DNA from: Pusillibacter faecalis
GTDB lineage: Bacteria > Bacillota > Clostridia > Oscillospirales > Oscillospiraceae
DNA length: 12,107 nt
Reading direction: 5' to 3'
Assembly (NCBI RefSeq): GCF_018408705.1
Contig: NZ_AP023422.1
Coordinates: 1 to 12,107 of the forward strand
This document shows positions 1,654 through 8,201 of this stretch, one piece after another. Position numbers and translations under genes: made by a program. The notes under the pieces were generated by a model. It was not told the origin of the DNA and searched no databases. It was given only the letters and a program-made list of their open reading frames with translations. Position 1 is the first letter of the stretch, and the number at the start of each line of letters is the position of its first letter.

Positions 1654-2148
1654 CTATTTTCTAAAAATCTTACTCCAAAAACTCTTAGGTCGTTCCAGCT
1701 CTACCGAAGCAACAGCACATCCAACCTCACTAGAAAGACGCTGCTGGTGCATCGTTCCGGCATGAAGTGCCTGCGCTGCCTGCACCGTCTGCTGTGCGGC
1801 GGTCAGCGCGTCAGTGAGCCGGGTAATGGTCTTAGCCTGCTGCTCGATCTGCCGGTCTTTCACTTCAAGCTGCCCTTGTAGCGTGTCGATGGTGGCCCGT
1901 AAAACGCAAACTAAATCGCCAACTTCGTGGTTTTCGGTTTGCGTTTTAGTTTGCGATTGGTTTTCGATTTCAGTTTTCGTTTTTTCAAAAAAAGCCTGTT
2001 TTATCAACGCTTCTTGTTGTTCATCAATCGCAAACTGGTTTCCGTTTTTTCGCAAACCTGATCGCAAACCAAGGTTTGCGATTTGCTTACTTACCGCTGT
2101 CTTTGATACCCCTATCTCGTCGGCTATCTGCCGGATCGTTTTTGCCAC
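1654..2148 (-). CDS. HTH plasmid-maintenance protein, DUF536-like, 164 aa
   Basis: The N-terminal residues 1-27 (KTIRQIADEIGVSKTAVSKQ) form a helix-turn-helix. A Gln/Thr/Lys/Glu-rich linker (about 55-75) follows, then a coiled coil (about 80-125) containing TIDTLQGQLEVKDRQIEQQ. The C-terminus is basic-aromatic (FWSKIFRK) and could be a membrane-touching amphipathic tail. This layout matches the DUF536 proteins found beside rep genes on small Firmicutes plasmids, where a role in replication or partition has been proposed but not settled. The start is GTG with a weak GGTGAT site, chosen because the HTH begins immediately after it. The gene lies 28 nt after the toxin gene and 16 nt before the small membrane-protein gene. 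The reading frame carries seven copies of WCGCAAACY, a likely DNA-level signal. Confidence 0.8.
   Translation of the reverse strand: MAKTIRQIADEIGVSKTAVSKQIANLGLRSGLRKNGNQFAIDEQQEALIKQAFFEKTKTEIENQSQTKTQTENHEVGDLVCVLRATIDTLQGQLEVKDRQIEQQAKTITRLTDALTAAQQTVQAAQALHAGTMHQQRLSSEVGCAVASVELERPKSFWSKIFRK
1904..2081. repeat. Cluster of seven iteron-like WCGCAAACY motifs inside the DUF536-like gene
   Basis: Exact 9-mers occur at 1904-1912, 2028-2036, 2050-2058 and 2062-2070 in direct orientation, and at 1936-1944, 1948-1956 and 2073-2081 inverted. Start spacings of 12, 22, 12 and 11 bp are close to whole helical turns. Three GTTTTCG variants at 1930, 1960 and 1973 extend the left block. The last two exact motifs form an inverted repeat with 10-bp arms (2061-2070 and 2073-2082). 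The 7-mer CGCAAAC turns up only once elsewhere in the unit in my reading, at 2900-2906. Candidate roles are Rep-binding iterons, a centromere-like site, or operators for the HTH protein. Confidence 0.65.
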
Positions 2149-2176: not shown

Positions 2177-2449
2177 TCAGAACAAGTCACTATGCGTTCC
2201 CGTTCTGGTCAAGCAGAGAACAAGCTCATCATTCTTGATTTCATAGATCAAAAGCCAGTCCGGAGTTATATGGCATTCCCTGCACCCGATATAATCTCCG
2301 GACAAGTTATGATCCCGATATATCTCCGGCAGCGGCTTTTGTTCCGCCAAAATACTAATTACTTCCTCCAGCAGCCGCACGTCATAGCCTCTCCGGACAA
2401 TTCTCTTATAGTCCTTCTTAAAGGCCGTCTGATACTTAATCGTCAGCAT
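2177..2449 (-). CDS. yafQ: YafQ-family mRNA interferase toxin, 90 aa
   Basis: This is a RelE-superfamily toxin that would cleave mRNA on the ribosome. Residues that define YafQ activity are all present: H47 in YRDHNLSG, H60 in CRECH, D64 and W65 in TPDWLLIY, and H86 in RTGTHSDLF. At 90 aa it has the usual length for the family. The start ATG overlaps the end of the antitoxin gene by 14 bp, and GGAGG lies 6 nt before it inside the antitoxin frame. That is the usual translational coupling of type II toxin-antitoxin pairs. The toxin looks intact. With the antitoxin it should act as an addiction module that stabilises the plasmid. The same transcript seems to continue into the DUF536-like gene. 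Confidence 0.93.
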   Translation of the reverse strand: MLTIKYQTAFKKDYKRIVRRGYDVRLLEEVISILAEQKPLPEIYRDHNLSGDYIGCRECHITPDWLLIYEIKNDELVLCLTRTGTHSDLF

Positions 2450-2708
2450 TCAGATCCTCCATCAGCTCTTTTACGGAGGAAAAAGCCCTGCTCATTCCAA
2501 TCCCATTCTCTACGTCCTCGATTGCTTTTCTCGTGACAGCATTCGGCACTTCGCCGCTGATCTCAAAGGGAATACGATACTCACGCACCGCCTTTTTTGC
2601 AAAAACATTGAAAGCGGTTGTCATCGTCATTCCCATATCAGCGCAAAAAGCCTCAAACTGCATCTTCAAGTCAGTATCCATGCGGATATTGATATTCGTG
2701 CTTGCCAT
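2436..2708 (-). CDS. dinJ: RelB/DinJ-family antitoxin, 90 aa
   Basis: The N-terminal ribbon-helix-helix (residues about 1-50: NINIRMDTDLK, then FCADMGMTMTTAFNVFAKKAV and R-E-Y-R-I-P-F-E) is typical of RelB/DinJ antitoxins, which bind their own operator as dimers. The C-terminal part (about 60-90: AIEDVENGIGMSRAFSSVKELMEDL) is the usual toxin-wrapping tail. The start ATG follows AAAGGGG by about 7 nt. As first gene of the operon it is expected to neutralise the YafQ-like toxin and, together with it, repress the promoter at 2741-2769. Length and gene order are standard for the family. Confidence 0.93.
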   Translation of the reverse strand: MASTNINIRMDTDLKMQFEAFCADMGMTMTTAFNVFAKKAVREYRIPFEISGEVPNAVTRKAIEDVENGIGMSRAFSSVKELMEDLNADD

Positions 2709-2941: not shown

Positions 2942-4444
2942 CTAATCTCCGTCCTTTTTCAAAGCCTCCACCAGCAAATCGCTCAGTGCCTGGGACGGCC
3001 GGACTCTGGCGACCATGTGACCATCCTCCTGCCACACCGCAGGCGGCTCACTGTCCCACCATTTGTAGACCGTTGGCTTGCTCAGACCAGTATCTCGGAT
3101 ACAGTCCGCCTTGCGCCCTTCCGGGTGCTGCTGCCGCCACCTATAGACCTCCCATTCCGCATTATGCCTGCCGTTTCCATCTCTCCAATCCTTTTTTCCC
3201 TTTTGCCGAACCCCAATATCCCTAATGGCCCTTGCAATCTCCAAATGGTCTTTTTGCTTGCGCCAATTCCGCTTATTGACCGGCATAGTCAGACCAGATA
3301 TCTTTGCAATATCATCCCTCGGAAAAGTCACATAGTCCTCATTGAACATCTCCAGAGCACACACCACATCGTCCTTCGTAAAGCGGTTGATGTCCTCCAC
3401 GCTCATATCGTCGTATGGCTTAATCAGCGCGAAAGCGTCATGGCGCAGCTCTTCTTCGTCTATGCCGCACTTTTTGGCATAGATGGCAAGCGTCATAATC
3501 CCGTAGAACCGATGGCCCACACGGATCTCGTCGGCGATCCGATGCAGCCACCAGTCATAGAGATCCCGCTTCACCGTCCAGCGCCCCCGACGTTCCTTCT
3601 TCACCACCCGGCGCTCATACCAGTCTGGGTACTTCTCTTTTGCCTCGGCCAGTGACAGGCGGCTCTTTCGCATGAGCGCCTGTATGCGCTGCTGCTCACC
3701 GTTGCTGTCTGGGATATAGTCAAACAGCTTCTCCAGCTCCACCGCACCGCCATACCGATAGGCCACCACGGGATATTCCTTTCCCAGCTTTGTGCCGGTT
3801 CCCACCACACGGAAGCCCTGCAAAATACCCTGCATCTGCGGCTCACGGATGGACGAGGTAAACCTGTTCCAGATCTGCCGGGTGAGAGCGTATTTCAGCT
3901 CTTTCAAAATCTTCTGATTGTGCGGGTACATAGGGATCGGCTCGGTCAGCACATAATACAGATGCAGCCCCGTCCCGCTGTTTACCACGAAGGTAGCCTT
4001 GGGAATAATGTCCTTGTTCATCTGATGCAGCGTGTCACGGAGCTGCGGCATACCCACGCCGTCCAGATCGAACACCATCGCATAGAGATACCGTGCGTTT
4101 TTCCCATTTCGCTTCCGACCGAAATACGAAATCGGGGACATGATCGTAAACTCCGTGTCCTTGATGTCCTCCAGCTCTTTCAGTTCATCTGTGATCACAT
4201 GACGGTGGGCTTTGCCGTCTCCCTGGATCTCCAGCGCAACACCGTTTTTCGGTGGTACCACCAGAGCGATACCATTTCCCTTGGCATCCTCAAAGTGACC
4301 TCTGCGCTCAAACGATCCCTCAGGGAAAATCTCCCGGTAAAACTCAAACGGCTCCACCGGCTCCAGATACTTTCCGAGATGGGCGTTCTTCTCCCGGTAA
4401 AGCGCCCGCTGCCGCTCCAGCGCAGCCTGCTGATTCATCGTCAT
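2942..4444 (-). CDS. rep: Replication protein, AEP primase/polymerase type, 500 aa
   Basis: The core resembles archaeo-eukaryotic primases used by plasmid Rep proteins. Motif I is MVFDLDG (D126, D128; metal-binding DxD), motif II is SGTGLHLYY (H161), and motif III-like FRVVGTGTK lies at 211-219. A helical segment follows (about 290-370; LRHDAFALIKPYDD, PriCT-like in style). A C-terminal HTH (about 444-464: KADCIRDTGLSKPTVYKWWD) probably recognises the origin. No helicase domain is present, so the host replicative helicase would be recruited. The start is ATG at 4444-4442 because GGAGG lies 6 nt before it. The frame is open for 44 more codons to a GTG, but that stretch is Pro/Arg-rich low complexity. 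It would initiate or prime plasmid replication. No relaxase-like rolling-circle Rep motif is seen, so theta-type replication is the inference. Confidence 0.83.
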   Translation of the reverse strand: MTMNQQAALERQRALYREKNAHLGKYLEPVEPFEFYREIFPEGSFERRGHFEDAKGNGIALVVPPKNGVALEIQGDGKAHRHVITDELKELEDIKDTEFTIMSPISYFGRKRNGKNARYLYAMVFDLDGVGMPQLRDTLHQMNKDIIPKATFVVNSGTGLHLYYVLTEPIPMYPHNQKILKELKYALTRQIWNRFTSSIREPQMQGILQGFRVVGTGTKLGKEYPVVAYRYGGAVELEKLFDYIPDSNGEQQRIQALMRKSRLSLAEAKEKYPDWYERRVVKKERRGRWTVKRDLYDWWLHRIADEIRVGHRFYGIMTLAIYAKKCGIDEEELRHDAFALIKPYDDMSVEDINRFTKDDVVCALEMFNEDYVTFPRDDIAKISGLTMPVNKRNWRKQKDHLEIARAIRDIGVRQKGKKDWRDGNGRHNAEWEVYRWRQQHPEGRKADCIRDTGLSKPTVYKWWDSEPPAVWQEDGHMVARVRPSQALSDLLVEALKKDGD

Positions 4445-4779
4445 AAAATACCTCCAGTCCAGAAAAGAAAAAGAAGCAAAAAGAAAAGTCCGCTGCGGCG
4501 GGACCCGCCTGCGGGCGGGAAGGGGGGAAGGGGGAGCCAAAGAGCTTCCCCTGCGGGGCCTTAAAGAGAAAGTCACCTCCCCCTTTCCCCCTCGCTGAGG
4601 GGCATGGAAATGATGGAAAACCCGTTGGGTTTACCACATTCCCACACCCCTCAGCACACCCCCATTTCCCCTCCGACTTTCTCCCGATCCAGAGAGAAAA
4701 TTTTCTTTCGTCTTTTTGAGCCAGAGGCTCTTAGGGGGGCATATATTATCAATATATTTTTTTTACCTTTTCACCTGTC

Positions 4780-4808
4780 ATTATAGCCTGTCCGAAAGGC
4801 GTTTGCAA
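4780..4808 (-). promoter_or_regulatory. rep promoter (TTGCAA-17-TATAAT) inside a hairpin
   Basis: On the minus strand TTGCAA (4808-4803) and a perfect TATAAT (4785-4780) are exactly 17 bp apart, directed into the rep leader. The -35 element lies in the loop of the 4783-4827 inverted repeat and the -10 element straddles its base. Cruciform formation, or a protein binding the palindrome, would therefore directly affect promoter use. Confidence 0.6.
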
Positions 4809-4827
4809 GGGCCTTCGGACAGGCTAT
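4783..4827. repeat. 14-bp perfect inverted repeat between mob and rep
   Basis: ATAGCCTGTCCGAA (4783-4796) pairs with TTCGGACAGGCTAT (4814-4827). A further GGC/GCC inside a one-base bulge leaves a 10-nt loop. It begins 2 nt after the mob stop codon. In the mob direction the sequence after the stem (ATGACAGG) has no T-run, and on the plus strand only TTTT overlaps its end. It is therefore at best a weak terminator and may instead be a regulatory palindrome or cruciform. Confidence 0.8.
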
Positions 4828-4829
4828 TT

Positions 4830-6134
4830 TCACAGGCTCATGTCACCCCAGGAATGGCCTTTCTCTCGCTGCTGTTCCTGCCGGTAGGACTGATGCTCCG
4901 GCAGCAGATCCCGCGCCTTATCGACGAGGTCAAGAAGCTGCTTCGGCAGGTGCCGCTCCAGCATATCCAGCACCCGGTCGATGCCCTCCAGCAGCCGGTC
5001 GGAAAAGCTCCGTTCTTCCTCCAGCGCCTCTTTCAGTTCCATGTTCTCATACCGGAGTCGTTCAAGCTGGTTCTGTTTTGCCGCAGCTTCCATCCGATCC
5101 ATGATAGACGGAACCTTTTTTTGCAGCTCGGCCTTGTCTTTTCTCAGCGCAGCATTTTCCTTTTTCAGCTCCACATTTTCCTGCTTCGACGCTGCGCCGC
5201 TCATGGCCGCAGCCTTGAGTTCCCTGATCTGCTCCACCGTAACGCCCTTGACAGCTCCTGTGAGCGTTTTTTCCGGTCGGATAGCATCAAAGTCCACCCG
5301 CACCCGTTCTGCGGCCTTCAGCGCCGCAGAAGCGCCGGAGAGCGACTTGATTTCCCGCTTCAGCTCCGTCCTCTGCTCCTGCAGGTCTGTCAGCTCCTGC
5401 GTGGATGCCACCGTCTGCTCTTGCACGGCCTCGGCCTCCTGTATCGCCGCCCGGTACTCCGGCAAGTCCATGTGCCGCCGGTTGCTGCCAAGAGAAATGA
5501 TTTCAAATTCGTGCTGCTGGGCGATCTCTGTCAGCATGTCCTTCTCCCGATCCATCCAAGCCTTCCATTCGGTCTGTTTCCGGCCAAGCCCGGTAAATCC
5601 CTGCTGCTTGAGCGCCTGCTTCATGGACACCCTCGTAGACAGGCCCCGCGTCTGCTCCGTTGCCACCGGGATATAGTCTACATGAAGGTGCGGCGTGGCC
5701 TCGTCCATATGCAGCACCATGTTGAACACCCGGAGATGGGGGTTGCGCTCCTGAAAGGTTTTTGCGAACTCCGTCAGCGCCTCGGCTGCCCGCCGGCCAC
5801 CCTCCGAGCCGCAGCCGCAGTCGCTGAGATTTCCGATCTGGAAGATGGCCTCATGGAACAGCTTCTCTTGCTTACTCTGCCGGATATGCTCGTAATAGTC
5901 CGGGATCTTATCTCTGGTCTTTTTCTTCCCGGCGTTGTAGATCTCCAGCGCCGCGTCAAACAGCTCGTGATAGACCTGCTTCAGATCCTCGTTGACAAAG
6001 ACGATGTTCTGCCCCGACCGGTCGCGGTCTACATTGGCCGCTGTAAACTCCCGGTTGTTATGCCGGATACTACCCTGTCCCATCATGCCAGAAATGGTTG
6101 TGCCGATACCGCTCACCCGTCCTTTCTTCTGCAC
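4830..6134 (-). CDS. mob: MobV-family relaxase (Mob/Pre), 434 aa
   Basis: This protein nicks oriT and pilots the plasmid strand into a recipient using a helper element's mating pore. Motif I is HNNR (25-28) followed by N34-x-D36. The catalytic histidine motif HMDEATPHLH (142-151), followed by VDYIP, is the MobV signature. Residues about 225-265 and 315-380 are heptad-rich coiled coils (ELTDLQEQRTELKREIKSL; ENVELKKENAALRKDKAEL), usual for the C-terminal half of the family. Length is normal and no motif is missing. The start is a GTG with a weak ribosome binding site, 21 nt from the predicted transcript start. A GTG six codons later is an alternative. This is the only uninterrupted copy in the window; it spans the junction at 6053/6054, which shows that the two units are seamlessly joined. 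Confidence 0.94.
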   Translation of the reverse strand: MQKKGRVSGIGTTISGMMGQGSIRHNNREFTAANVDRDRSGQNIVFVNEDLKQVYHELFDAALEIYNAGKKKTRDKIPDYYEHIRQSKQEKLFHEAIFQIGNLSDCGCGSEGGRRAAEALTEFAKTFQERNPHLRVFNMVLHMDEATPHLHVDYIPVATEQTRGLSTRVSMKQALKQQGFTGLGRKQTEWKAWMDREKDMLTEIAQQHEFEIISLGSNRRHMDLPEYRAAIQEAEAVQEQTVASTQELTDLQEQRTELKREIKSLSGASAALKAAERVRVDFDAIRPEKTLTGAVKGVTVEQIRELKAAAMSGAASKQENVELKKENAALRKDKAELQKKVPSIMDRMEAAAKQNQLERLRYENMELKEALEEERSFSDRLLEGIDRVLDMLERHLPKQLLDLVDKARDLLPEHQSYRQEQQREKGHSWGDMSL

Positions 6135-7706: not shown

Positions 7707-8201
7707 CTATTTTCTAAAAATCTTACTCCAAAAACTCTTAGGTCGTTCCAGCTCTACCGAAGCAACAGCACATCCAACCTCACTAGAAAGACGCTGCTGG
7801 TGCATCGTTCCGGCATGAAGTGCCTGCGCTGCCTGCACCGTCTGCTGTGCGGCGGTCAGCGCGTCAGTGAGCCGGGTAATGGTCTTAGCCTGCTGCTCGA
7901 TCTGCCGGTCTTTCACTTCAAGCTGCCCTTGTAGCGTGTCGATGGTGGCCCGTAAAACGCAAACTAAATCGCCAACTTCGTGGTTTTCGGTTTGCGTTTT
8001 AGTTTGCGATTGGTTTTCGATTTCAGTTTTCGTTTTTTCAAAAAAAGCCTGTTTTATCAACGCTTCTTGTTGTTCATCAATCGCAAACTGGTTTCCGTTT
8101 TTTCGCAAACCTGATCGCAAACCAAGGTTTGCGATTTGCTTACTTACCGCTGTCTTTGATACCCCTATCTCGTCGGCTATCTGCCGGATCGTTTTTGCCA
8201 C
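7707..8201 (-). CDS. HTH/DUF536-like plasmid protein, copy 2
   Basis: Residue-for-residue the same as the copy at 1654-2148: N-terminal HTH, Q/T/K/E linker, coiled coil, FWSKIFRK tail and GTG start. It also carries the internal motif cluster. Confidence 0.8.
   Translation of the reverse strand: MAKTIRQIADEIGVSKTAVSKQIANLGLRSGLRKNGNQFAIDEQQEALIKQAFFEKTKTEIENQSQTKTQTENHEVGDLVCVLRATIDTLQGQLEVKDRQIEQQAKTITRLTDALTAAQQTVQAAQALHAGTMHQQRLSSEVGCAVASVELERPKSFWSKIFRK
7957..8134. repeat. Iteron-like WCGCAAACY cluster, copy 2
   Basis: The same seven motifs with the same spacing and orientation as at 1904-2081, giving 14 sites on the dimer. If they are Rep-binding iterons, a dimer would carry two origins. 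Confidence 0.65.

Follow-up and report, generated by a model that had tools for sequence, protein, structure and literature searches.

A repeat array inside the coding sequence of a putative pSK1 Par-like partition gene on a Pusillibacter faecalis plasmid

The DNA analysed here (henceforth the window, 12,107 bp) is the entire contig C3 of its source genome, that of Pusillibacter faecalis. It holds a plasmid unit of about 6,053 bp twice, head to tail, the second copy showing few-base differences around 4473–4478 and a shift near 4765; this doubling could be either an assembly double or a dimer. One copy of the plasmid has six main open reading frames (ORFs), i.e. a 319-amino-acid (aa) ORF, a 164-aa helix-turn-helix (HTH) gene (henceforth the par-like gene), YafQ, RelB, a putative Rep and a Mob_Pre-type relaxase (Table 1). 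The subject of this work is an array of the degenerate nine-base motif WCGCAAACY within the par-like gene. There are seven exact motifs per plasmid copy, every one inside this gene and none elsewhere on the plasmid. Because the contig holds the unit twice, the second cluster in the window is the same feature.

The cluster had been reported in an initial annotation of this DNA, and both its seven exact motifs and its palindrome were recovered here. The window contains 14 exact motifs against 0.52 expected (200 shuffles, maximum 3), and the whole genome 46, the remaining 32 being spread over about 3.4 Mb outside this contig. As had also been pointed out, the motifs occupy all three codon registers and encode different residues (I-A-N, G-L-R twice, Q-F-A, S-Q-T, T-Q-T and V-C-V). 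When the codons of the gene were permuted synonymously with the protein kept fixed, none of 100,000 permutations reached seven copies (maximum 5), nor did any of 100,000 draws from the codon usage of the plasmid (maximum 4). The array exceeds what the protein sequence needs. The suggested spacing near whole helical turns is seen in the window, with R at 0.76 for a 10.5-bp period (naive p ~0.018) and 0.83 for 11.5, but not in the arrays of five relatives, which phase worse at 10.5 bp (R 0.20–0.53) and better at 11 or 11.5, so that helical phasing of the arrays is weak.

The product of the gene has an N-terminal MerR-type winged HTH, a long predicted coiled coil and a C-terminal tail, KSFWSKIFRK. 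In the AlphaFold2 model a helix covers residues 42–144 after the HTH (block predicted local distance difference test, pLDDT, of 90–93 at model residues 81–120), and the tail has low pLDDT and no helix. The best structure match of the DNA-binding domain is 8csh, the domain of pSK1 Par on centromere DNA. No ParA-, ParM- or TubZ-type family was found in the Pfam/NCBIfam scan of the window's six main ORFs, and the ParA ATPase plus ribbon-helix-helix (RHH) pair of type Ib systems is absent from these same six. The window protein is like pSK1 Par in its MerR-type winged HTH, its long predicted coiled coil and the lack of a nucleoside triphosphatase partner among these ORFs. The earlier description of the protein as DUF536-like is fair, although the likeness falls below the Pfam cut-off: pSK1 Par has a DUF536 match (27.3 bits), the relative L060 reaches 16.6 against a cut-off of 20.7, and the window protein has none. 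Searches against defence families gave only weak matches (E 0.003–0.01).

A genome scan provided 38 related loci (numbered with L), most of them on contigs of 3–8 kb, and three more came from a plasmid collection (L009–L011). Judging from their titles, we take the 38 to be mostly Clostridia. Using the residues of the recognition helix, we assigned the relatives to four groups, the letters A to D being our own. Group A (TAV[SN]KQ, window-like; L009 and L012–L021) has 7–9 motif copies at corresponding positions in all 11 loci, which represent six distinct genes, and no copies elsewhere on the locus. Group B (QAVFKK; L022–L028 and L047) has no A motif in the gene; its array, with CCGTCAACC as the motif, occupies the same gene stretch as that of A, with 4–7 exact CCGTCAAC and, in the six genes examined, 11–13 copies of CCGTCAAC or a neighbour word at no more than one mismatch. 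Group C (QAVRAW; L011, L033–L046 and L048) carries 6–7 TTTCGCA. Less securely, GCATACG forms the array of group D (Q[AT]VYKR; L010, L029 and L030), with 3–4 copies and the palindrome CGTATGCGCATACG in each; L029 has TTGGAGCGCTCCAA twice as well. All CCGTCAAC in B and all GCATACG in D lie inside the gene, as do the TTTCGCA copies of C with no more than one exception in each locus. The initial annotation had held that homologues keeping the protein and losing the motifs would count against it. Groups B, C and D literally do so, but they carry another array, with another helix, in the same stretch of the gene. Together with the synonymous nulls, these other arrays support its view that selection acts on the DNA rather than on the protein. 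Synonymous differences inside versus between motifs were 0.034 and 0.169 in group B, and 0.000 and 0.043 in group C. Further scans gave matches in 6 of 391 genomes (class) and 18 of 394 (order), with the window's own genome in both, and added more A-, B-, C- and D-type genes; a scan of viral contigs found no relative. At the protein level, 3,634 homologues were counted.

Each gene was also compared with 1,000 synonymous permutations of itself, the commonest exact 7-mer being the statistic. The 48 genes used (L059 included) came to 28 distinct ones after trimming differently cut ends, and 21 of these, the window's among them, showed an excess at 1% or better. With 200 permutations for each, 97 other ORFs on 16 of the plasmids yielded three at the 1% level, two of them overlapping par arrays. 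Chance or low-complexity coding as the source of the array was ruled out by this comparison and the two synonymous nulls described above. The 7-mer test did not include L047 and L048 (frameshifted or cut, the array being seen in both), the near-copies L067–L070 and L073, nor the partial and uninformative L031, L032 and L049, which match mainly in the C-terminal half and have no in-gene excess. The fragments L063, L076, L078–L082 and L086–L088 were left out. In one of them, L079, the par-like gene lies in two frames with a reported internal stop, and a tandem peptide, KSKTENLKSQTDDQ, is encoded by TCGAAAAC/TCGCAAAC repeats.

To what, then, is the array sequence tied? At the level of sequence, motif sharing follows the recognition helix and not Rep. 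The similarity of the repeated words correlated with that of the helix (r 0.74), also given Rep (partial r 0.71, p 0.0002, 5,000 permutations, 16 genes), while for Rep given the helix the partial r was −0.30 (16 distinct genes). An earlier correlation between motif and protein over codons 17–45 (r 0.93, 18 genes) is partly circular because these codons contain part of the array, and residues 12–22, which precede the first motif, were used instead. The correlations were run on 18, 18 and 16 genes; L027 was omitted, its Rep being split at a contig end, and the Rep of L023 stood in for that of L022, their par genes being identical. The more divergent L062, whose overall identity is 28%, fits this pattern: its helix and wing closely resemble those of B and its repeats read CGTCAAC, although its Rep retains 63% identity to that of the window.

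The exchange of one array type for another is best seen between L012 (A) and L025 (B), where nucleotide (nt) identity is 97% over codons 3–16, drops to 39% over codons 17–45 (helix and first array block), rises to 81% in the motif-free codons 46–56, falls again to 50% over codons 57–83 (second block) and returns to 91% over codons 84–140. Flanks and motif-free middle are conserved, whereas the helix/array blocks have been replaced, either by recombination or by fast joint change. In group C the divergence is wider and includes the flanks. Given that the recognition helix adjoins the array (~200 bp) and that the flanks are conserved between types, one exchange would alter specificity and target together.

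We consider it probable, from these sequence patterns and the likeness to pSK1 Par, that this is a single-protein partition gene whose predicted binding sites for its own protein, i.e. the centromere, lie inside the coding sequence; a centromere for the HTH protein was among the candidates of the initial annotation and is the one supported here. The winged HTH would bind the in-gene array, with multimerisation and bridging provided by the coiled coil. Through the C-terminal tail the complex may be fixed to the membrane or to some other structure of the cell, and the copies of the plasmid would in this way be held and distributed. Binding to the array might also lower the transcription of the gene itself, and autoregulatory operators are possible as an addition to the centromere.

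Several observations weigh against this reading. The 8csh match is modest (Foldseek E 9e-3, with no match at E ≤ 0.001), and with a profile of 19 sequences 8csh came only second (E 0.022). Seven of the 28 distinct genes missed 1% in the 7-mer test: three of the four group D genes (L010/L071, L030 and L072), the A-like L074 (11/1,000), the B-like L075 and L077 (31 and 34/1,000) and L061, a relative with no clear array. Synonymous differences in group A are not fewer inside the motifs (0.080) than between them (0.035). When codons 17–45 served as predictor (18 genes), Rep kept a partial r of 0.19 (p 0.049). Seven more remote genes from Bacilli comprised pSK1 par and six DUF536 relatives. No in-gene excess appeared in pSK1 par or in five of the six, so the wider family does not share the in-gene placement; L053, the remaining DUF536 relative, gave 2/400 through CAACAAA, a simple word. 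The RNA folding of the array and a replication role reported for a DUF536 protein, both taken up below, belong on the same side.

The 21.8-kb plasmid of Flavonifractor plautii (L051), with a Rep 79% identical in aa, shows what may stand in the place of par. In L009 an 82-aa gene precedes par, and on L051 a 90% identical copy of it precedes a ParA ATPase instead, after which comes a small protein whose RHH match is weak and below the cut-off. A type Ib-like pair fills the same operon slot, and Rep is kept while ParA occupies it. In the window itself the yafQ–par gap is 28 bp, with no 82-aa gene between them. L051 carries two sets of rep, RelB-toxin, 82-aa gene and ParA.

Other explanations of the array have to be set against the partition reading. 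The sites could be autoregulatory operators only, blocking transcription of the gene's own or the toxin-antitoxin operon and having no role in segregation. Type Ib centromere-binding proteins double as repressors (PMC5016525, in part), and the array is in the downstream part of what is likely one operon with relB-yafQ. We nevertheless think this unlikely, given that the 6–13 sites of groups A–C form two blocks which span ~200 bp and are distant from the operon start, that the exact motif was not found upstream of the operon, and that arrays persist on L025, L027, L029 and L030, where no YafQ was found (these contigs may be incomplete); the ParA gene in par's slot on L051 also argues against it. 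Less probable still is that the protein is a replication factor, of the kind claimed for RepB' of a Lactobacillus curvatus plasmid, with the array as its origin or replication enhancer. In a lactobacillus, a replication role has been attributed to a DUF536 protein that has a repeat region upstream (PMC7117683, in part), and origins within rep genes are known from the pT181 and pSK41 families (PMC5703833, in part). Most relatives, however, have a separate conserved Rep, which L051 retains with ParA in par's slot, and the closest match among solved structures is to a partition protein bound to centromere DNA.

An iteron origin bound by the plasmid's Rep, also put forward in the initial annotation, is very improbable. 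Short clustered repeats do look iteron-like, of the direct-repeat families reported for the plasmid the only one exceeding two copies is located in the array, and motif sharing and Rep similarity are correlated when left uncorrected (r 0.50). The array does not track Rep, however, and the Rep origin was rejected on the partial correlation given above, since Rep adds nothing once the helix is considered. Rep genes that are 97% (L009 or L016 against L023) or 96% (L020 against L026) nt identical accompany A and B arrays that share nothing, 11 of the 29 distinct-gene pairs with Rep above 90% nt identity have no common repeated 7-mer, and in L065 a C-type helix and array stand beside an unrelated Rep3 initiator and a MobQ relaxase. 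We give as little credit to selection of the repeats as mRNA hairpins, for control of translation or stability, rather than as protein-binding DNA. The array RNA is indeed more stable than expected (folding z-scores of −5.2 in the window, −5.6 in L022 and −3.7 in L033, with 0/200 shuffles as stable in each). Against hairpins, the copies keep one sequence, including direct repeats, which need not form a stem, the repeated word changes with the recognition helix, and the orientation patterns of the sites vary between groups; moreover, no Rfam family matched the array RNA at gathering score, and inverted copies yield hairpins anyway.

Table 1. Features of the window, with positions, strand and the evidence for each.
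Feature	Position	Strand	Evidence
Par-like gene, 164 aa	1654..2148	-	ORF; AlphaFold2 model; structure match 8csh
C-terminal tail KSFWSKIFRK	1657..1686	-	sequence; by-eye likeness to the end of pSK1 Par (GFWSRLFGG) and to relatives' ends
Repeat array, 7 WCGCAAACY sites, blocks 2028–2081 and 1904–1956	1904..2081	.	motif scan; synonymous nulls
Motif ACGCAAACT	1904..1912	+	exact match
Motif ACGCAAACC	1936..1944	-	exact match
Motif TCGCAAACT	1948..1956	-	exact match
Motif-free stretch between blocks	1957..2027	-	no exact motif; codons 46–56 within it 81% nt identical, L012 (A) vs L025 (B)
Predicted wing codons, residues 33–41	2026..2052	-	AlphaFold2 model
Motif TCGCAAACT	2028..2036	+	exact match
Motif TCGCAAACC	2050..2058	+	exact match
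Palindrome ATCGCAAACC-AA-GGTTTGCGAT	2061..2082	.	sequence
Motif TCGCAAACC	2062..2070	+	exact match
Motif TCGCAAACC	2073..2081	-	exact match
Predicted recognition-helix codons, residues 16–25	2074..2103	-	model helix 15–24, model begins at residue 2; group-specific residues
YafQ-family toxin (type II toxin-antitoxin), immediately upstream of the par-like gene	2177..2449	-	Pfam PF15738
RelB/DinJ antitoxin	2436..2708	-	Pfam PF04221; TIGR02384
Putative Rep, start possibly near 4441	2942..4576	-	function from context only; conserved across these plasmids
Mob_Pre/MobV-type relaxase	4830..6134	-	Pfam PF01076; MobV model below its cut-off
Par-like gene, second copy in doubled contig	7707..8201	-	ORF
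Array, second copy in doubled contig	7957..8134	.	motif scan

With regard to the other genes of the plasmid, the label AEP-Rep given to the putative Rep could not be confirmed: the protein has no Pfam or NCBIfam family, and a PDB search gave only a weak NusG match (E 0.028). The 319-aa protein (477–1436, + strand) has no Pfam/NCBIfam family above cut-off, and its sole match among the 41 relatives is in L027 (31% over 99 residues). An imperfect 30-nt inverted repeat (80%, 3-nt loop) at 4774–4836, at the 3' end of the relaxase gene, is possibly a terminator. Another inverted repeat, of 23 nt (91%, 14-nt loop) at 168–227, is a candidate transfer origin; on the circularised sequence it lies upstream of the start of the relaxase.

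Among known systems is par of pSK1 (Staphylococcus aureus). The repeats found in its record (TTAGGTAGTAAA-like when read by eye; the automatic repeat list gives AATTAGGT four times) lie upstream of the gene, whereas the array of the window is inside the gene and no exact motif is found upstream. In six Bacilli relatives the 350 bp before the gene showed no array, the commonest exact 8-mers having 2–4 copies and being mostly A-rich. RocS of Streptococcus pneumoniae has an HTH, a coiled coil with DUF536 and a membrane-binding C-terminal amphipathic helix, and its authors relate its winged HTH to Par and RacA and suggest a mechanism shared with Par, adding that more work is required (PMC11500499, in part). 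RocS is chromosomal, unlike the plasmid par, and its likeness to the window protein is by description only. RacA of Bacillus subtilis, the sporulation anchor of the chromosome, is 17% identical over the part that matched. Type Ib partition uses two proteins, including an ATPase, and a centromere upstream of the operon (PMC5016525, in part), compared with one protein and an in-gene array here. Cis-acting maintenance sites within coding sequences do have parallels, namely a putative parS inside parA of Mycobacterium bovis BCG (PMC2346475, in part) and the pT181 and pSK41 origins. BCG has a single site, in an ATPase gene, and the pT181 and pSK41 sites are origins of replication; in neither case does a centromere array sit in the gene for the protein that binds it and change with that protein's recognition helix. 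In the partition systems covered by the portion of the literature examined, the centromere is outside the gene of its binder, and a partial literature search found no centromere array inside its own binder's gene changing with the helix.

We lean, if only slightly, towards a broader view in which these genes are widespread one-gene partition modules of gut Clostridia, with centromere and specificity both encoded in one stretch of ~230 bp; a single recombination would then create a new partition and incompatibility type and leave the backbone unchanged, and the helix/array pairs would give a readable helix-to-DNA code. There are at least three such pairs (A with TCGCAAACY, B with CCGTCAACC and C with TTTCGCA) and probably a fourth (D with GCATACG). 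The plasmids with in-gene arrays include one from Blautia hydrogenotrophica carrying erm(B) (L009) and one from Clostridioides difficile carrying cfr(C) and aph(3')-IIIa (L011), which gives the maintenance of such plasmids practical interest. In the arrangement proposed here, protein and site would be inseparable in transfer, one stretch of DNA serving two codes. The series of helix/array pairs on near-identical plasmids makes it testable how a winged HTH shifts its DNA specificity, and whether partition type alone sets plasmid incompatibility.
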